Positions 34,300-47,235 of a stretch of DNA of 64,000 bases are shown piece after piece. The translations under genes were made by a program, and so were the position numbers. The stretch lies in IMG/VR virus record IMGVR_UViG_3300030102_003270, positions 21,686 to 85,685 of that record; one strand, given 5' to 3'. Below the pieces are notes generated by a model. The model saw only the letters and a program-made list of their open reading frames with translations. It had not been told where the DNA came from and did not search any database. This DNA comes from a virus. Numbering within the stretch: the stretch's first letter is position 1; each line of letters starts with the position of its first letter.

Positions 34300-34529
34300 T
34301 CGCCACCACCCCAAAGTCTAGCGATATTTGCTTTCTTATCGTCTTCTGGGTTTGGCATCTTAATGTCCTTTGCTCTCTTTAGGAAGGCAATCATATGGTC
34401 GCCCCCACCAACAGATATGATTGAACATAGTTCCCAACCCTGTTCTCCCTCAGTATTTAGGTTATCTATTACATTCTTAGGGCCGTTAGCCGCATCGAAA
34501 ACCATGTATTTATTCTCCCACTTCACCAT
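34296..34529 (-). CDS. DUF4177-like small protein
   Basis: 77 aa. 'VKWENKYMVFD' followed by 'LNTEGEQGWELCSIISVGGG' and 'MIAFLKR' matches the DUF4177 pattern (a strand, a 'GxxGWELV' turn, then 'hhFLKR'). The family is widespread and of unknown function. It overlaps the helicase-like gene upstream by 20 bases. Confidence 0.65.
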   Translation of the reverse strand: MVKWENKYMVFDAANGPKNVIDNLNTEGEQGWELCSIISVGGGDHMIAFLKRAKDIKMPNPEDDKKANIARLWGGGE

Positions 34530-35991
34530 CTTTCTTGTCCTCCAATAATCTTACATAAACTACTCTATTTATTTTGTCTTCTTCAAAGTATTCTTCAATC
34601 TTTGCCCACCATTTGTAAAGTGTGGATTGACCTTTCTTTGTCTTTTCTCTAACCTTTTGGAACAAAACGTTCTTGTTAACCCATCCGTCCTTAGATTGCA
34701 ACTCTCTATAAACTGTTTTAAACGCACTAATATTGGCTCTTTCTTGCAGACCCTTCTTCTCTTCACGTAGGCTTTCATCTAGCCAAGATACGAGGGACTT
34801 ATAGCACTTCCTAATTAGAGAGGATGCTTGTAGCACGTTTTTTTGAGTGACAATGAACCTTTTATCTTTATCAGATATACTTGGTGCTTCTGCCACTGCA
34901 CACAATATTGCCATCTTTTGAATGTGCTTTAGCATTCTATTGATGAAAGTCTCTACTGACTGAAACACTTCTATTCTACTACTTTCGATATATTTCTCCA
35001 TTAGTTCACATTCTCTCTCTAAAGCATCATTAGCATTCTTACTAAACCTCATTACCTTTAGTGGGTCTTGGCCCACATCATCGAACCTATCTTTCAAGGT
35101 ATCATATAGAGTCAAGAAGTTTTTAGCGTAAGTTGTCTTAGGCAATGTTCTGTTTCCAACGATACCCCAATCTTTGATTAGTTGTCTTCGCATCTGCTTC
35201 TGTTGATGTTGAGGAACTTCATAGATGAATATCAGAATCCTTTGAAGAACCCCCTTCTCAGTAATAACAGTGGTCAACTCCTTTGGAATGTAAGTAGTAG
35301 CATACACTGACCTTCTACACTTGCAGATAATAGGGTCTTCTCCTTGTTTCAATTTCTTGCTTATAATCCAAGTCTCTCCCCATAGAGTATTCATGAATGT
35401 ATTGAGATACACGATTGCCTGTTCTTTGTGCTGGCTTTGCTTGAATATACCCGAATACTCAAACTCATCCCACATAGCCATTCCTTCTCCTTCCAATTGA
35501 CCGGGAACTTGAACATCAACCTCAACCCTTCTCATCTGTCCATTATCATCTTCAACCTCTTCTCTTCTCTTCTCATAAGAACCAATCAATGCTGCATCAG
35601 TATAGTCGGTTATGTCAAAGATGTCAAAATGGGTATCATGCTTGGCATTGATTGTATCGAAGGTCAACCTCAATACAGGTAGGAACCAGTTGGTCAAAGT
35701 TGACTTTCCTGTTCCCGATGTCTGCATCCAAAGAAACTGAATACGTGTATCGTCCACATTCAGATTACTAGGAATGGCAATCATGTCTTTACATAATTGA
35801 CCCAATACTGAGAAGAAGGCCAATGCCGCAGGAACGTCATTGTAATTTGATGCCAATACAGCATCAGCAGTCCACTTCTCTACAATCTTTGGCAACGTCA
35901 ACTTATTGCTTTCTGCTGCCACATTATCATCTACGAAACTGTAATACAGTTCGTCTTCATACTCATTTCTATTAGTTTCTGTCCAATTCAT
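34510..35991 (-). CDS. P-loop ATPase, predicted replicative helicase (DUF3987-like)
   Basis: 493 aa. Walker A 'SGTGKST' at about 92-98 and Walker B 'MAMWDEFE' near 190 lie in a RecA/AAA-like core resembling DUF3987/primase-associated helicases of mobile elements. The C-terminus (410-490) is a predicted winged helix, common in such proteins. It sits directly after the XPF nuclease and primase genes. No other replicative helicase is seen in the window, so it is the best candidate. Confidence 0.6.
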   Translation of the reverse strand: MNWTETNRNEYEDELYYSFVDDNVAAESNKLTLPKIVEKWTADAVLASNYNDVPAALAFFSVLGQLCKDMIAIPSNLNVDDTRIQFLWMQTSGTGKSTLTNWFLPVLRLTFDTINAKHDTHFDIFDITDYTDAALIGSYEKRREEVEDDNGQMRRVEVDVQVPGQLEGEGMAMWDEFEYSGIFKQSQHKEQAIVYLNTFMNTLWGETWIISKKLKQGEDPIICKCRRSVYATTYIPKELTTVITEKGVLQRILIFIYEVPQHQQKQMRRQLIKDWGIVGNRTLPKTTYAKNFLTLYDTLKDRFDDVGQDPLKVMRFSKNANDALERECELMEKYIESSRIEVFQSVETFINRMLKHIQKMAILCAVAEAPSISDKDKRFIVTQKNVLQASSLIRKCYKSLVSWLDESLREEKKGLQERANISAFKTVYRELQSKDGWVNKNVLFQKVREKTKKGQSTLYKWWAKIEEYFEEDKINRVVYVRLLEDKKDGEVGE

Positions 35992-38828: not shown

Positions 38829-39746
38829 TTACCACCATTCATCTAACGTCTTTTGTTTTGAGTCATTTTTTATTGGGGCTAGACTCCAACCCATTGCCTT
38901 GTATATTGGTTCAGCCTTCTTTATAATAGATTCTGCATAATGGGGCCAATCTGGTGTATGTCTATACAATTCTTCCTTTGTAGAAGCAGCGATATAGGAC
39001 GGTCTTTTGACTACGCCTGTAACCGGATTAACGTAGGTTGTTCTCCTAACGTCATCTGCTACCTTTAGATAAACATAAGAATCATCTATCTTATTGTCTT
39101 CATTCTGATGATTCCAGATAACACCTTCAATGCCAGAACCTATACTTGGCCTTTTACCAGAAGTTGTGACCACATTCAATTTTTGACCGCACTTACTACA
39201 ACATGCCTCATGACTGTCTCGCTTTGCTTCATTGTGAATATCAATGCAATCTTGCATTGAAAGTGCTTTTTTGCAGTCATTACACTTGTAAGATAGCCTT
39301 TCTGGTCTATATCTGCTTCTGTTAATCAGATAGTCAACTGGGACTTTTCCTTCAAGGACTGCGTAATATGCCTTCTTCAACATGCTAGTTATTTCTAACT
39401 CGGTGAATTGACCAACCCACATTTTCAGAATGCTCATCTGAGTCTCCTTGGCTAGTTTGGTTATTGATAACCGCTTTGCAGTAAAACCCGTCATTACAAA
39501 TTCTGGCTCATTCAGATACTTTCCATCCTTCCAAGAAATCAAACCAGCGTTTCTATTCTTAGTTAGACCTACACCTAGAGACTGATAGTATTTCTCAAAC
39601 TCCAAAGTAACAGGATGTTCATCCAAACCTAACAAGTTAGGAAATATCTGCCTAACATGATTGTTTAGTAATTGTAACGTTGCTTCTGCTTCTTCCATAG
39701 GCATTTGAACGTATATTGAATCAGTGTGTCCATAAACAACCTTCAC
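38829..39746 (-). CDS. polB2: DNA polymerase B, C-terminal half (motif C, thumb, PIP box)
   Basis: 305 aa from GTG 39746 with GGTGATT five bases upstream. It begins almost at once with 'VVYGHTDSIYVQ', family B motif C (His where the first Asp of DTD usually is; the catalytic Asp is kept). 'FVMTGFTAKRLSITKLAKETQ' matches the palm-thumb junction. A zinc-ribbon insertion ('CNDC'...'CSKC') lies at about 155-190. The chain ends 'KQKTLDEWW', a PCNA-binding PIP box. It must pair with the N-terminal half encoded upstream to make an active enzyme. Confidence 0.88.
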   Translation of the reverse strand: MKVVYGHTDSIYVQMPMEEAEATLQLLNNHVRQIFPNLLGLDEHPVTLEFEKYYQSLGVGLTKNRNAGLISWKDGKYLNEPEFVMTGFTAKRLSITKLAKETQMSILKMWVGQFTELEITSMLKKAYYAVLEGKVPVDYLINRSRYRPERLSYKCNDCKKALSMQDCIDIHNEAKRDSHEACCSKCGQKLNVVTTSGKRPSIGSGIEGVIWNHQNEDNKIDDSYVYLKVADDVRRTTYVNPVTGVVKRPSYIAASTKEELYRHTPDWPHYAESIIKKAEPIYKAMGWSLAPIKNDSKQKTLDEWW

Positions 39747-39931: not shown

Positions 39932-40018
39932 CTAATCACCAAACAGAAAGCGATACAGGATAACGCTCATAGCGGAAACATACAATACAATTATACTGAA
40001 ACTGACGACATTCATCAT
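39932..40018 (-). CDS. 28-aa hydrophobic micro-ORF between the PolB halves
   Basis: ATG 40018 overlaps the TGA of PolB-N (ATGA), with GGTGATGGAG upstream. Nearly the whole peptide is one hydrophobic helix ('VVSFSIIVLYVSAMSVILY'). It ends 'RFLFGD', and its 3' end forms the binding site of the next micro-ORF. Confidence 0.52.
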   Translation of the reverse strand: MMNVVSFSIIVLYVSAMSVILYRFLFGD

Positions 40019-41685
40019 AACTCCATCACCTTGAAAGCCGCTTCCCTAATTGCTTCTCTAGCACTAGCAGTTATACTAGCAGCCAAATCAACATCAGCCC
40101 AACCAAATCCTTGATACCCAACCACTCCATAGAATGAAGCCATCAGTCTCTTAACTGCTAATTGGTTGTTGTTCCACTTAGCATATTCAGCAGGGTCTTT
40201 TGCGTTATACATTCTCTTCTTGTATTCCGTCCTTAGTTTCTTTAGGTCTAATACTGCCTTTGGCAGAAGACCCAATTCATCCGTCCTGTAATATTTCCAG
40301 TCTTCAAACTTGACAGGACTGAAATCTCTTGGTATCAGGACGTTCACACCAAACTCAGTTGGTTCCTTTGATTTAGTCTCCCATGATATATTACGGGCAA
40401 TCATCATACTAGGATATAGCCCTGCAAAATCAAATGCAGCAACACCTAGATGCAAACCATTGGTTCCTTCTGTCTCCGGGTTGTAAATCATAGCACCCTC
40501 ATACTCCACCCTGTCACCTTCTTTGTCTCCTGTTGGAGCCTTCCAAGTAGCATTACGCATGAAGTATATTCCACCCATGTTTGATGCATAGAAACATGCA
40601 TCGAATGGTGCAACAATCAAACGCTGAAGTGATATGATTGCCTCAGAAGTATAGTTTTCTTCATCCAATCTAACAATCAAGTCAACGTCCTTTCTAGCAT
40701 AGTCTAGATAGTTTTGAGTATCTTCTAACCATCCTCTTTGAAAGAACTGATTCTTGTCTGGAAACCTATCACTGACTAGTTTCTTCTCACCAAGGACATT
40801 CTCAGAAACATAGTCCAATGCCAATGAGGGTAATGTTCCCCTTTGAGCATCATTCCATTGTCTCTCAAACGCCAAGTCTAGATTCAGAATCAACCTTCCT
40901 CTAATCGGTTGCTCGATAGGAGTATAGGAATTGACTGCCTTACTGAGTTTTATGCCACCAGAATAATACACTCCCTTGACATCATTGTAAGGAGATAGAA
41001 GTCTTGGGTCTATATCATTGGCATGTAATCTCTCAATTAACTTAGGCAAATCGAACTTTGAACCAAACCAAGCAATAAGCATGTCTGGGTCTTTTTCCGT
41101 AATCTCCTTGACGAATGCAAAAAGCATACTCTTCTCAGAATCATAGGGCTTTGAATGTCCTCTAATCTTTCTATTGATTGAATCTGGTTGCCACCAATAT
41201 ACATTAGATTTCTTAGTATAGTTGTCATAATAGGAAATACAAGTAATAGCACCGTTATACTTACCACGCTGTTGCCACTCTAAATCCCAGTAAAACTTCC
41301 TAAGTCTGTATTCTGGCAGTGATGTTAATCTGTCAATTGCATACCGATAATGAAAGGGAACGTCTGCCTCAAAGGTTTCATTCCATTGCTTACGCAGTTC
41401 CCTAACGTAGTTTGGTTTTGGTGGACTCCAAGTAACTTTCTTCAAAGCCCTACCATCAAGAGATACAGAACCATCAACAGTATAACTTAGATTGATTCTA
41501 AACGAATCCTTCCTACCATTGACGTATTCTGTAATGTTGACTCCTTGCCTTTCATTCTCATTTGCCAGAATGTAGAAATACGGATTGAAATCCGCATAAC
41601 TTACATTCGACTCTAATCTATTGTTGTTCTCATCTCTCCATCTAAGAACAAACATATTCGCATTGTCTATTGCACTAATTATCAT
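40015..41685 (-). CDS. polB1: DNA polymerase B, N-terminal half (exonuclease, motifs A and B)
   Basis: 556 aa, start at ATG 41685. Exo I 'WDLEW' (Asp134, Glu136), Exo II 'WFGSKFDLP' (Asp212), Exo III 'YARKD' (Tyr329, Asp333), motif A 'DFAGLYPSM' (Asp419) and motif B 'KRLMASFYG' (512-520) are all present. The frame then stops after 'ITASAREAIREAAFKVMEL', exactly the helix that precedes motif C in intact family B polymerases. Motif C is encoded 269 bases downstream in a second gene. Proofreading residues look intact. PCNA lies directly upstream. Confidence 0.93.
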   Translation of the reverse strand: MIISAIDNANMFVLRWRDENNNRLESNVSYADFNPYFYILANENERQGVNITEYVNGRKDSFRINLSYTVDGSVSLDGRALKKVTWSPPKPNYVRELRKQWNETFEADVPFHYRYAIDRLTSLPEYRLRKFYWDLEWQQRGKYNGAITCISYYDNYTKKSNVYWWQPDSINRKIRGHSKPYDSEKSMLFAFVKEITEKDPDMLIAWFGSKFDLPKLIERLHANDIDPRLLSPYNDVKGVYYSGGIKLSKAVNSYTPIEQPIRGRLILNLDLAFERQWNDAQRGTLPSLALDYVSENVLGEKKLVSDRFPDKNQFFQRGWLEDTQNYLDYARKDVDLIVRLDEENYTSEAIISLQRLIVAPFDACFYASNMGGIYFMRNATWKAPTGDKEGDRVEYEGAMIYNPETEGTNGLHLGVAAFDFAGLYPSMMIARNISWETKSKEPTEFGVNVLIPRDFSPVKFEDWKYYRTDELGLLPKAVLDLKKLRTEYKKRMYNAKDPAEYAKWNNNQLAVKRLMASFYGVVGYQGFGWADVDLAASITASAREAIREAAFKVMEL

Positions 41686-41689
41686 TGAA

Positions 41690-42469
41690 TCATCCTCTAA
41701 TATAGGGTGCTACTATTAATTTTCTATCTACACCACACAATAGTATGGGTGCATCGTCTTTCATATACAGATACATAGTACCGGAACAGAACTTGTCTAG
41801 TGGTGCAGATACCTCAAGTGTGGAGTTTTCTCCTTCTCCTAGAATGATTGGTATGTTCACTTTATACTTCTCAGTCTGATGGAAGTTCACAGAAGAGGCA
41901 GTCAACTCACCATCCTCAAAGTTAATCCTGTAAGTAGCAGTTCCTACAATACCACAGTTCTTGATAGCATTGGCTAAAGCATCTCCTTGCACTGTTACTT
42001 TTGTCTCAAAGGTAGTCCTACCAAACGTAGGAAACTCATCTCCTTCTACATCCACTCTCATGCCAAATATTCTACTAATAGCAGCCATACCAGAATGCTC
42101 TACAAGCAATGGTATCTGCGCTCTTTGTGACGAAGTTTTCAAGATAACGTTTGACGCTGTAATAGTAATATACATATCATCGTCCTTGAAGGTCTTCAGA
42201 TACTTCAATATCCTCTCAACCTCAAAAATGAACATAGACTGCTCACTCTTTGTCACTATGTCAGTAATACCAACATTGCACATTGCTGCCATAGTATCGC
42301 TGGCATTAGCCAAGGTCAATGTTGTGCCATCATTGCTTATCACTCCGGCTACATCATTGCTTATGGCTGCTAACTTTGAAGTATGAGCATTCTTATACTT
42401 GCCCTTCAAAGTAACTGCATTCAACGCAGAATCAAACTCTTTTCTATTCACTGTAAATTTAACATTCAT
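41690..42469 (-). CDS. pcn: Sliding clamp (PCNA)
   Basis: 259 aa with the two-domain PCNA layout: a 'MNVKFTVNRKEFDSALNAV' start, an interdomain segment near 115-135, and the C-terminal 'KLIVAPYIRG' strand equivalent to the usual 'LAP.I'. Length is typical (245-260). It sits five bases upstream of the PolB N-terminal gene and just after a RecA-like ATPase gene. PIP-box motifs in PolB-C, the RFC-large-like protein and a micro-ORF suggest what it binds. Confidence 0.87.
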   Translation of the reverse strand: MNVKFTVNRKEFDSALNAVTLKGKYKNAHTSKLAAISNDVAGVISNDGTTLTLANASDTMAAMCNVGITDIVTKSEQSMFIFEVERILKYLKTFKDDDMYITITASNVILKTSSQRAQIPLLVEHSGMAAISRIFGMRVDVEGDEFPTFGRTTFETKVTVQGDALANAIKNCGIVGTATYRINFEDGELTASSVNFHQTEKYKVNIPIILGEGENSTLEVSAPLDKFCSGTMYLYMKDDAPILLCGVDRKLIVAPYIRG

Positions 42470-43607: not shown

Positions 43608-44831
43608 TCAGAACCAATCAATGTCTTCTTCTGTTGACTCGTATGGTTCTGCTACGACTCCACGGTTCTCAGTGCATAAAACACCACTAACGTTTATCGT
43701 AATATCACCGGGTCCACCATCTTGGTTTCTTCCTTGTGATGTTCTACCAACAAGAACCAATGATGAACCAATACCAAAGTCAATGTCAATGTTGGCAGGA
43801 ATCCAACAGGTTGTTCCCGCCCATGAACCACCATCATAGTCGAAATCAGAATTCAAATCGCTTACGGTTATCCTTCTAGTTCCTATGCTGTTTGGTGTCA
43901 TGTTGACACTAGATACAGAACCATCTGTAATTACAAATCTTTGTGCATATGGCTTTCCTTCAGATTCAGCATGATGTCTAGCAATGTCAGATAGACTGCA
44001 ATAGTGACCACCAGCAGTCTCCATCATGTGATTCTGTATGTCAGTCACACTTGGGTTTTCTGTCCTCAATGGGTCATCATCAGACAAATCAGCGTTATAC
44101 ACTAGACTCTCCATTGTTCCCATCTTGAAACCATAAATCCTGTCAGCATTATTACTGTCTGGAATACAGTCAAAGTGAACAAAGTGGAAGGTCTGTGGAT
44201 TGAATGTCTTACAACCATCTCCTTTGTAGGAGAAGTAGTAAAGACCCTCATTGCCGTCAACACTCCCAATAAAGACTCCTGCGAGCCTAAATTGCTCAGA
44301 AGGTAGTGGCCTACCATAATTGGCATTAGGGCCGCTAGAATACTGCTGTATGCTATCTAACGGCACAATCCATTTACCTACCTCTATCTCATGAGAGTTA
44401 GAAGGTAACTCAACCACAATCTTAGTCTGCTCATCCCCCTTGTGCATCCTACTGATTTCATAGCCACCGTTGCTCTCTAGAACAACTGCTACTTTACCTA
44501 GAGAGAATGTAGTATCAGCATCTCTAAGATACTCATTCTTAATTCTCTCGTTTTGCATTTTAGCCATGTCTCTAGGGGCATCTAGGGATATGAAATACCC
44601 AGATGCTTTCTTCACTAGTGAATTACCACTAGATTGTTGCTTTGGTGCGTCTTTATAGGCAAAGGTTCCACTGAACCATTGTCTAAACAAAGATAGGGCC
44701 AAGGCCCAATCTTCTTCTGGTTGAAGATTGTTTGCCTCACATATCTCCATATATTTTGTTTCTGTTTCAGAAACCTGCATTCCCAAGACTTCAGCAGCCT
44801 TGGCTATTTCCATATTTACTTTTTCTTCCAT
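43608..44831 (-). CDS. Candidate single-stranded DNA-binding protein
   Basis: 407 aa from ATG 44831, nine bases after GGAG. The C-terminal part (about 330-385) has an OB-fold-like strand series ('CWIPANIDIDFGIGSSLVLVG', 'DITINVSGVL'). The chain ends in an acidic tail closing with an aromatic residue ('YESTEEDIDWF'), like the tips of SSB and T7 gp2.5 that recruit partners. It lies between MazG/RFC and the RecA-like ATPase, where an SSB would fit. The N-terminal helices are unassigned. Fold is inferred. Confidence 0.5.
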   Translation of the reverse strand: MEEKVNMEIAKAAEVLGMQVSETETKYMEICEANNLQPEEDWALALSLFRQWFSGTFAYKDAPKQQSSGNSLVKKASGYFISLDAPRDMAKMQNERIKNEYLRDADTTFSLGKVAVVLESNGGYEISRMHKGDEQTKIVVELPSNSHEIEVGKWIVPLDSIQQYSSGPNANYGRPLPSEQFRLAGVFIGSVDGNEGLYYFSYKGDGCKTFNPQTFHFVHFDCIPDSNNADRIYGFKMGTMESLVYNADLSDDDPLRTENPSVTDIQNHMMETAGGHYCSLSDIARHHAESEGKPYAQRFVITDGSVSSVNMTPNSIGTRRITVSDLNSDFDYDGGSWAGTTCWIPANIDIDFGIGSSLVLVGRTSQGRNQDGGPGDITINVSGVLCTENRGVVAEPYESTEEDIDWF

Positions 44832-44836
44832 TTTTT

Positions 44837-44902
44837 TCATCTCCAATATTTTCTTTTCATTTTGTATTTTTTCTTTCTTTCAAAGTATTCAGACCACTTC
44901 AT
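44837..44902 (-). CDS. 21-aa basic micro-ORF
   Basis: ATG 44902 follows GAGTGATAAA. The peptide is strongly basic and aromatic ('MKWSEYFERKKKYKMKRKYW'), and its TGA lies inside the ribosome site of the next gene. It may only couple translation. Confidence 0.42.
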   Translation of the reverse strand: MKWSEYFERKKKYKMKRKYWR

Positions 44903-44906
44903 TTTA

Positions 44907-44978
44907 TCACTCAAAAACAAATCCGAACTCATCTAAAGTTGTCTGTCTACTATTCTCTAGTGACATTATGGTACTCAT
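44907..44978 (-). CDS. 23-aa micro-ORF carrying a PIP-box motif
   Basis: ATG 44978 overlaps the preceding TGA (ATGA). The peptide ends 'RQTTLDEFGFVFE'. 'QTTLDEF' matches the PCNA-binding consensus Q-x-x-L-x-x-aromatic and closely resembles the PolB tail 'QKTLDEWW' in the same virus. It could be a free clamp-binding peptide that modulates viral or host PCNA. Confidence 0.5.
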   Translation of the reverse strand: MSTIMSLENSRQTTLDEFGFVFE

Positions 44979-45139
44979 ACATCGTCACTCTCCATCTGTT
45001 GTTGTTGCAGTGGTGTCCAATTTCTCTGTGGTTCATCCATTCTGAAACAACGCAATAAAGCCTCATCGAATGTTATATCATTCTCTAAAGCATAATCACT
45101 TATCTTATCATACATTTCTTTCGGTATTCTTATCTTCAT
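44975..45139 (-). CDS. 54-aa ribbon-helix-helix-like protein
   Basis: ATG 45139 overlaps the MazG stop (ATGA), with GGTGATGATAG upstream. 'MKIRIPKEMYDKISDYALEN' followed by 'ITFDEALLRCF' fits the strand-helix-helix pattern of small RHH repressors. The tail is Gln-rich and acidic. Possibly a regulator of the replication genes. Confidence 0.58.
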   Translation of the reverse strand: MKIRIPKEMYDKISDYALENDITFDEALLRCFRMDEPQRNWTPLQQQQMESDDV

Positions 45140-45486
45140 CTATCATCACCTTCTCCTTTTATTACATTTCTTTCCTTTCTATCTTCTAATTTTTTTATGT
45201 TGTTTTCTGCTATTAGGCTTAGACTCAAACCTAAATCACTCGCAAGATTAGATAGATACCATAGGACATCTCCTATCTCCCTTTCTATCTTATGTGGATA
45301 GGCATACAATCTAGGTTGCTTTGTCATCATAGTTTTTATGAAGCCGTCATCACGAATGATTTTCTTTATCTTTTCAGCGACTTCACCACTTTCACCACAT
45401 AGACCTAAAGCGGGATAGATGATATTCATATCAACAGGGTATATCGCAAATCTCTTTGCTTGCATTTGATAGTCATCGAACTCCAT
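45136..45486 (-). CDS. mazG: MazG-like NTP pyrophosphohydrolase
   Basis: 116 aa. 'ALGLCGESGEVAEKIKKIIRD' and 'REIGDVLWYLSNLASDLGLSL' carry the E-x2-E...E-x2-D metal-binding helices of the all-alpha MazG family. Family members hydrolyse dNTPs or ppGpp, cleaning nucleotide pools in infected cells. It lies between RFC-S and small regulator genes. Confidence 0.82.
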   Translation of the reverse strand: MEFDDYQMQAKRFAIYPVDMNIIYPALGLCGESGEVAEKIKKIIRDDGFIKTMMTKQPRLYAYPHKIEREIGDVLWYLSNLASDLGLSLSLIAENNIKKLEDRKERNVIKGEGDDR

Positions 45487-46392
45487 TCAAATCAACTGCC
45501 CTATCATCCATGCTGCTAATACTTTAGGAGTCATACTACCACTTCTCCATTCACTTTCTCCTATTACTCTAAGATATTTGAATTTCTTAGCAGTTGGTAG
45601 ATTCTTTTTAACGATAACATCATGCATACCTACACAAATAGTTTTCATGTCTAACGACATATGTATCATATCATGCATTTTCTTGAGGGCTAATTCATAT
45701 TGGTCATTAAGAATGTGTTCTAACAAATCATTGTAAGGTTGTTGCATTCTTTCTATTTGCATTGTTAACGGGGTATCACTTGAAACAGACGCCTGTAATT
45801 CAGTAATCCCTCGTCTTAAGTCACCATTTAGTGTCCCTATAAACTCTTCCAACTGAGGAAAATCTGCGCTGGATATGCCTTCAGCCGACAGTATTCTATT
45901 CAACGCAACCGCTATCTGTTGGTCGGATAGTCTGGTAAATCCATAGTTTGCACATCTTGACTGCAATGGATAAATTATCTTGTGCCTATGGTTGCATGTA
46001 ATGATGAAACGAACATTGGAACTATAACGCTCCATTAGTCTCTTCAATGCATTCTGAGCATCGGGAGTCATACCGTCCATCTCATCAAGCAATATTATCT
46101 TATGAGGCACATCGCCTATCTTCATAGCAGATGAAATCTCTTTGATTGTGGTTCTAACCACTTCAAGCCTCCTATCATCCGAGGCATTTATTTCAAAGAA
46201 GTTCGACTCCTTATCCTCACCTAGCACAAAGTTTGCTATTACACCTGCTGCCGCAGTTTTACCTATACCTGCTTCTCCAAAGAGAAGGAGATTAGGCATT
46301 CCATCTTTCCAATTTCTAGCATCACTAACGAATTTATCTTGTCCTAAGATTTCCTCTAGTGTTTCCGGTCTATATTTTTCTGTCCATAACAT
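45487..46392 (-). CDS. rfcS: Clamp loader small subunit (RFC-S)
   Basis: 301 aa. 'WTEKYRPETLEEILGQ' (RFC box II), Walker A 'GEAGIGKT' (39-46), Walker B 'LLDEMDGM', and the 'SRC' box are all present. This AAA+ ATPase loads PCNA onto primed DNA. It partners the RFC-large-like gene six bases upstream. Length is slightly shorter than cellular RFC-S (about 320-330). Confidence 0.93.
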   Translation of the reverse strand: MLWTEKYRPETLEEILGQDKFVSDARNWKDGMPNLLLFGEAGIGKTAAAGVIANFVLGEDKESNFFEINASDDRRLEVVRTTIKEISSAMKIGDVPHKIILLDEMDGMTPDAQNALKRLMERYSSNVRFIITCNHRHKIIYPLQSRCANYGFTRLSDQQIAVALNRILSAEGISSADFPQLEEFIGTLNGDLRRGITELQASVSSDTPLTMQIERMQQPYNDLLEHILNDQYELALKKMHDMIHMSLDMKTICVGMHDVIVKKNLPTAKKFKYLRVIGESEWRSGSMTPKVLAAWMIGQLI

Positions 46393-46398
46393 TTCAAT

Positions 46399-47235
46399 TC
46401 ACATCCAATTATCTAATCCTAACTGTTTATCTTTCTTCTTTCTTTTAGATACTCTATCTGGTATCTTGGCCCTGCGTTTCTGAACGTTGTTCAGTTTAGT
46501 CTTCATGTATTTCACGAATACAGGGTCTTGCTTCAATTGCTCTAAGATATACTTCTCATGGCTTTTCAGCCCAACCTTTCTACATATCTGAGCATCCCTA
46601 TCATATGCTCTCTTTGATGGAATGATTGCACTACGGGCAAGTGTTCCATTGTGAGAGTATGCCAATAACTCGTAGAAGTAGTCCTGTGACCATCTTCTCT
46701 TTACCTTAGCATCAATGTAGGCTAATTTATTGGGATGTATGTTGGCTGTCAACCAAGATAACAATTGAACATCCGGTGGTTTGTTCAATTTAAGTTTCAA
46801 TGCAACATCATCACGGTCTTTGTTCTTCAAGAAATCATGAGTAATCTCAAACACGTTCTTGAAGTAATCTTCTGGTTCATCTGAATTAGGAGCCATTAAC
46901 TTTAACTTTGCTTGTAATTTAGATTTACCTGCTCTCTTTAATTTACACAAAGAAAATATCTTCTTAGGCACGTCTTTTTGGTTTGCCGATGTAAGAACAA
47001 CATCACCTCGATATTTCAACAAAGTATCAACAATCAAATCCGTTTGTGGTTTGAAGTTGGCCTCTAGTATGACTATACCCCTATCAATAGGAATACTGTA
47101 ATTATCAACAATGTCATACTCGTTGGCATACTTTACAATTGGGTCATCGAAAAAGGCTATTGCTTGTTCTTTCTTCTCCGTTCCTTCTTTTCCTACAATT
47201 ATTATTGGTCTTTTAGTTTCCATTCCTATTATCAT
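46399..47235 (-). CDS. RFC large-subunit-like protein with degenerate ATPase and PIP box
   Basis: 278 aa, AAGGAGATATC before ATG. 'IIIVGKEGTEKKEQAIAFF' near the N-terminus looks like an AAA+ strand with a ruined P-loop. The C-terminus is basic ('RVSKRKKKDKQLGLDNWM') and ends in a PIP box, as archaeal RFC-L does. Position beside RFC-S supports a clamp-loader role where this chain binds PCNA and RFC-S supplies ATPase activity. It is about half the length of cellular RFC-L. Confidence 0.68.
   Translation of the reverse strand: MIIGMETKRPIIIVGKEGTEKKEQAIAFFDDPIVKYANEYDIVDNYSIPIDRGIVILEANFKPQTDLIVDTLLKYRGDVVLTSANQKDVPKKIFSLCKLKRAGKSKLQAKLKLMAPNSDEPEDYFKNVFEITHDFLKNKDRDDVALKLKLNKPPDVQLLSWLTANIHPNKLAYIDAKVKRRWSQDYFYELLAYSHNGTLARSAIIPSKRAYDRDAQICRKVGLKSHEKYILEQLKQDPVFVKYMKTKLNNVQKRRAKIPDRVSKRKKKDKQLGLDNWM

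Follow-up and report, generated by a model that had tools for sequence, protein, structure and literature searches.

The DNA analysed here (the window) is a stretch of 64,000 nucleotides that forms part of a 96,269-base virus record. It encodes an HK97-type capsid protein and protease, split PolB, RFC-S, PCNA, a ligase, and TFB with a TFIIB-type zinc ribbon, and its genes form two clusters of opposite orientation. The same set of proteins and the same two opposed clusters are given in the published description of the Magrovirales, viruses of Poseidoniales archaea (PMC10768690). By this match the genome is that of a magrovirus, and it encodes a clamp and a clamp loader of its own besides the split PolB. 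The features considered below are as follows.

34606–34629, minus strand: PIP-like site QSTLYKWW in a 493-aa protein (34510-35991), recognised as a motif, 31 residues before the protein end
38829–39746, minus strand: C-terminal part of PolB, with the tail QKTLDEWW at 38832-38855 (family match and motif)
40015–41685, minus strand: N-terminal part of PolB (family match)
41690–42469, minus strand: viral sliding clamp of PCNA fold (predicted structure and structure matches)
43608–44840, minus strand: 412-aa ORF without a family match, conserved in the clade, listed from TTG 44846 with a probable start at ATG 44840
44837–44902, minus strand: second, basic micro-ORF, MKWSEYFERKKKYKMKRKYWR, beginning four bases behind the stop of the PIP micro-gene
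44907–44978, minus strand: PIP micro-gene of 23 codons, MSTIMSLENSRQTTLDEFGFVFE, conserved and under selection
44919–44945, minus strand: motif QTTLDEFGF within the micro-gene, a putative non-canonical PIP box
44975–45139, minus strand: 54-aa ORF upstream of the micro-gene, weakly similar to ribbon-helix-helix repressors
45487–46392, minus strand: RFC small subunit-like clamp loader ATPase (family match)
46399–47235, minus strand: clamp-loader-like protein of 278 aa, with the tail QLGLDNWM at 46402-46425 (motif of relatives and a low-confidence model)

The clamp was undetected by Pfam, and its PHROGs match was weak. An AlphaFold2 model of it was confident (pLDDT 91, pTM 0.88); archaeal PCNAs were the best PDB matches to this model, and PDB 5da7, a PCNA with a small protein inhibitor bound, was among its structure matches. 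Residues P241, A254 and P255 are among those invariant across 19 homologues, and we take them, by position and with the PCNA numbering assumed, to correspond to C-terminal residues of the PIP pocket. The 278-aa protein gave a model of low confidence (pTM 0.40), for which the 50 matches listed were clamp-loader complexes or subunits, and the sequence GK.GTGKT is present in some of its relatives. Searches of Pfam and PHROGs with the 412-, 278- and 493-aa proteins returned a single weak match, below the Pfam cut-off. Close relatives of the 493-aa protein keep its PIP-like site as QSTLYKWW, QQTIYNWW or QATIYRWW; it was not seen in several others.

The start of the micro-gene overlaps the stop of the 54-aa ORF as ATGA. 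On its other side, the stop of the basic micro-ORF overlaps the ATG at which the 412-aa gene probably starts. In many magroviruses, including those without the PIP gene, the 412-aa gene is directly preceded by a basic, W/Y-rich relative of this second micro-ORF (M[TK]WEEY..K.YK...KxWK). The 412-aa protein itself has an acidic tail with aromatic residues (EEDIDWF) that is kept in many relatives; single-strand-binding proteins have ends of this kind. The preliminary description had drawn attention to similar motifs in the C-terminal part of PolB, the RFC-large-like protein and the micro-gene, and all three lie where it had located them. Their shared form, Q..LD[EN][FWY], occurs exactly three times among the 1134 ORFs of at least 15 aa in the window, compared with an average of 0.05, and never more than 1, in 500 residue-shuffled controls. 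In text from PMC6881253, the canonical PIP box is given as Q-x-x-aliphatic-x-x-aromatic-aromatic, and its eight positions are used as numbering below.

Relatives of the micro-gene were sought both by gene neighbourhood and by motif. Scanning with RFC-S as query identified 49 virus loci, many with a tiny motif-bearing ORF in the same place; these ORFs include ENSRQTTLLEYGL.., MRQTSLTEFGLKVGIRQTVITEFVE, MRQTKLTEFGLIIDIRQASILEFVE and MKQKTLIDYGFMYGFSKIDKGRQMTLTEFVK. Pattern scans of viral_contigs gave 36 and 55 loci, with 25 of the 36 and 38 of the 55 matches in ORFs of at most 60 aa, and a codon-permuted control of the second scan gave 2 loci against 55. Among the pattern loci examined, only one (L090) had no homologue of the window's genes. 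The motif was not used in an unbiased survey of 132 loci chosen by protein similarity only. Here a broad PIP-like pattern occurred in 31 of 3599 distinct small forward ORFs. Only 2 of 6287 antisense ORFs had it, and shuffling of residues gave 4.5 on average (maximum 10 of 200). Two motifs were present in 8 of the 31, and sorting by eye assigned 20 to the family and 11 to apparent chance. The cellular genome collection yielded 20 pattern matches where about 15 were estimated by chance, and none of the 20 was on an archaeal-labelled contig. One match (L253 of genome_contigs, NZMJ01000151.1) lies in a Maricaulis MAG, but its contig has the gene order of the window, belongs to a magrovirus and was evidently misbinned.

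The preliminary description had named conservation of the motif against its surroundings as one of the points to check, and it was confirmed. In the five 23-codon forms found by synteny, pN/pS was 0.07 over the ten motif codons and 0.48 over the leader. Across 14 clades, pN/pS was 0 at the Gln of position 1, 0.05 at the aliphatic position 4, 0.04 at the Glu of position 6 and 0.12 at the Phe/Tyr of position 7, as against 0.51, 1.37 and 0.67 at positions 3, 5 and 8. We also assembled 45 distinct forms, mostly with a pattern that fixed R, Q, T, L, E, F and G of one motif and left the second motif and position 9 free; the ATGA overlap with the upstream stop was present in 19 of these genes, one motif was found in 22 of the proteins and two in 23, and the residue after position 8 was hydrophobic in 43.

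The micro-gene is kept in distant magrovirus relatives, at one place within each clade and at four places in the replication cluster between clades. It lies before the 412-aa gene in clade A, which includes the window; between the p159 and p150/p142 genes in clade B; between the p331 gene and an ERCC4/XPF-type nuclease gene in clade C; and behind an unsplit PolB in clade D. On a 76-row tree of the 412-aa protein, its place follows the phylogeny with 6 changes, a count that leaves out rows of unknown state and is taken from a quick tree with some long branches. The gene is absent from 7 rows in which all three places were covered (one subclade and L012), and no PIP gene was present in the stretch examined at 3 of 23 clade D loci; it is therefore not indispensable. 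In the druskavirus HVTV-1, no comparable free small PIP ORF was seen within 24 kb.

With 23 codons and no family match, the micro-gene might be taken for a chance open reading frame. We rejected this explanation, which is hardly conceivable given 55 loci against 2 in the control, the excess in the motif-blind survey and the codon constraint; the phylogenetic placement and the ATGA overlaps also argue against it. The micro-gene is thus a real gene under strong protein-level constraint, conserved at the PIP positions.

The features at positions 1, 4 and 7 that help to mark a PIP box are present: Gln at position 1, Leu or Ile at position 4, and Phe or Tyr at position 7 in the 14 clades, with Trp in some clade D forms. 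The aromatic residue of position 8 is lacking; this residue is mostly Gly, and also Val, Ile or Glu. As position 8 is mostly not aromatic, the motif was filed as PIP-like and non-canonical. Data quoted in PMC6881253 put the fraction of 77 confirmed PCNA-binding motifs without one aromatic at 43%. Judged from its sequence, the micro-motif Q-x-x-L-x-E-F-G-hydrophobic is a non-canonical PIP box. The tail of the C-terminal PolB is more regular, with Q..[LIM]..W[WF] in 28 of 30 distinct homologues and W at position 7 in all 28, compared with F or Y at this position in the micro-motif of the 14 clades. Tails of loader-like proteins are looser (QLGLDNWM, SQLTLGDF, TLDKWL). A PDB search with a two-motif peptide returned chance matches only.

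The best evidence for reading the micro-motif as a PIP box comes from relatives in which canonical boxes (QMTLDEWF, QTKLTDFY, QTKLTDYF) replace it or are paired with it. One clade D small protein carries the canonical QMTLDEWF at the site that is QTTLDEFG in its apparent homologue in L070, and other clade D proteins pair QTTLEEFGF with QTKLTDFY or QTKLTDYF. Further motifs in this clade include QTTLEEFL at the very C-terminus, QTTLTEWG and QTTIDEWS. These swaps, the conservation of positions 1, 4 and 7, and the similar tails of PolB and the loader in the same genomes all speak against a short linear motif for some partner other than a clamp, with an accidental likeness to a PIP box. Such a motif could account for the Gly at position 8 and for the conserved Glu at position 6, neither of which defines a PIP box, and for the lipoprotein-like forms described below; we consider it unlikely. 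The preliminary description, which proposed a PIP-box micro-gene, was right in part. The gene is genuine and conserved, the positions at which it is conserved match a PIP box, and it clusters with a clamp, a loader and a clamp-tagged polymerase; the box is non-canonical, with Gly in place of an aromatic residue at position 8. The forms with two motifs and the extent of the family lay outside what that description could see.

Two-motif forms have a regular geometry, with a Gln-to-Gln spacing of 13-15 residues in 22 of 24 (L013 added). By the geometry that we assume for the PCNA ring, this seems too short for two pockets of one ring, and bridging of two such pockets was judged unlikely from the short linker. 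Since the spacing seems too short for the pockets of one ring, the use of two motifs would be avidity, rebinding or cross-linking of two rings.

In 14 clade B pattern loci (L100, L103-L106, L112, L115, L125, L130, L133, L138 and L142-L144), a lipoprotein-like protein of 145-168 aa begins with NSRQTTL[KR]EFG (NSRQTTLKEFGLVFLVAVMLSGC..). These proteins have a hydrophobic stretch and an LSGC/LAGC lipobox-like site, and are located where relatives have the free micro-gene. The sequence SRQTTLK.. resembles the Tat-like signature S-R-R-x-F-L-K. A reading of the motif as a signal peptide or Tat-like signal was discarded, as it fits only the 14 lipoprotein-like ORFs and not the tandem forms without a hydrophobic stretch. 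A 79-aa domain is encoded by a separate gene upstream of the micro-gene in L010 (3128-3367) and is fused to the motif in a 96-aa protein of L202 (3209-3499), where the motif forms the tail.

Clade D differs in its replication proteins. Its PolB is a single chain that ends in ..PKAYGWW or ..PKSYW, without the Q and L of a PIP tail. The protein in the position of the clamp is distantly homologous to the clamp (hhalign probability 87, E 4e-6, 168 columns) and lacks the A-P C-terminus. A PIP micro-gene or small gene lies just behind PolB in 16 of 23 loci with complete PolB, and an 80-aa protein with QS[KT]L.EFGD precedes the clamp gene in 4 of the 23, some of these loci not being independent of the motif because the scan was seeded from motif-bearing contigs. 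The tandem micro-gene behind PolB in L313-L316 has an apparent TTG start one base after the PolB stop, a junction read in L313 and L315 only; the sister L312 has ATG. A frameshift fusion of PolB and the PIP peptide was suspected for L313-L316, where the front of the micro-ORF has no ATG, but a separate TTG start is simpler.

The persistence of the micro-gene across wide divergence makes it probable that its product is a peptide that sits on a clamp, either that of the host or that of the virus. Knowledge of the motif makes it quite likely that the peptide binds a clamp. The explanation that we favour overall, and hold to be reasonably probable, is a free clamp ligand of one or two motifs that competes for PIP pockets, with host PCNA slightly favoured as its target. 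The gene would yield a free peptide of little more than one non-canonical PIP box, or in many relatives two in tandem, which would dock in the PIP pocket of a sliding clamp and compete with proteins that reach the clamp by PIP tails of their own. In this way host PIP proteins might be denied access to host PCNA while the virus makes use of the viral clamp. The Gly at position 8 in place of an aromatic counts against this explanation, as do the tree rows and clade D loci that lack the gene, and the 14 lipoprotein-like clade B forms are hard to reconcile with a simple clamp ligand of the cytosol.

The slight preference for host PCNA comes from clade D, which has retained the motif although its clamp and PolB tail have diverged. 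The motif has stayed more constant than the viral clamp and the viral PolB tail, and its F-G differs from the W-W of that tail. As main target, host PCNA is a tentative choice, with less support than clamp binding as such, and the viral clamp is possible rather than probable. With the viral clamp as target, in what is a variant of the favoured explanation, the peptide might act as a regulator or adaptor that tunes the exchange between PolB, loader and nucleases, or that gives a tail-less PolB its clamp contact in trans. The operon overlap with replication genes, the fusion of the motif to small proteins and the clade D gene directly behind a PolB without a PIP tail (16 of 23 loci) are consistent with such a role, but the motif is kept while the viral clamp and PolB tail diverge, and in clades A-C PolB has its own tail, from which the peptide differs at positions 7 and 8. 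We regard this role as conceivable, short of an even chance. To return to the host as target, a stronger form of the favoured explanation can be put forward as a speculation: bare PIP peptides of one or two motifs, made by an ancient micro-gene across the magroviruses, may selectively fill the pockets of host PCNA and stop host replication, while the virus uses a diverged clamp of its own and a W-type polymerase tail. As part of the same speculation, the take-over of the host would be achieved by a single short linear motif, which would be portable and so could be moved, doubled, or fused to small domains and to lipoprotein-like signals.

In a whole group of viruses of marine archaea, a motif-only gene with one or two motifs appears to have survived deep divergence. 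Gene callers tend to pass over genes that consist almost entirely of a short linear motif, which is why such genes seldom come to notice. No earlier description of such peptides was found in the portions of the open-licence literature covered, which included parts of PMC10160649, PMC7544198 and PMC12999244. If host PCNA is the target, the peptide would be a natural clamp inhibitor of minimal size and would provide a mechanism for shutting off host replication in archaea; with the viral clamp as target, it would show regulation of a replisome by a free PIP peptide.

The nearest functional analogue among the known systems, as far as these are covered by the sections of the papers drawn on here, is TIP, the Thermococcales inhibitor of PCNA (PMC6204406). 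Both are small archaeal proteins with a non-canonical PIP motif, and the micro-gene peptide, like TIP, would act on PCNA. TIP, however, is cellular and breaks the trimer, with a 17-residue amphipathic helix after its motif, whereas the micro-gene peptides are viral, have 19-51 residues and often two motifs. They are too short for such a helix: the window form has 3 residues after QTTLDEFGF and most others have few. PIP peptides of the p21 type likewise shut out partners by a PIP box that occupies the clamp pocket (PMC6881253, PMC9690074, in the passages used), but p21, a regulator of cellular origin, is larger, and its box has the two aromatics of the canonical form. The Caulobacter toxin SocB blocks replication through a clamp-binding motif; according to the relevant part of PMC9690074, it acts on the bacterial beta clamp, belongs to a toxin-antitoxin pair and has another motif. 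T4 gp33 and gp55 are virus proteins that act with the clamp of the same virus in late transcription (PMC9690074, in part). Since magrovirus and T4-like replisomes are described as related in text from PMC7544198, we considered a gp33-like coupling of the viral clamp to viral late transcription. This is very unlikely: gp33 and gp55 work with RNA polymerase, 19-51 residues leave little room for a polymerase-binding part, none was seen in the micro-gene peptides, and no other supporting sign was found. The motif itself, Q-x-x-L-x-x-aromatic, is that of the C-terminal PIP tails of archaeal replication proteins as they appear in the text used from PMC6881253, and the magrovirus PolB has one; what is the tail of an enzyme there is a gene of its own here.
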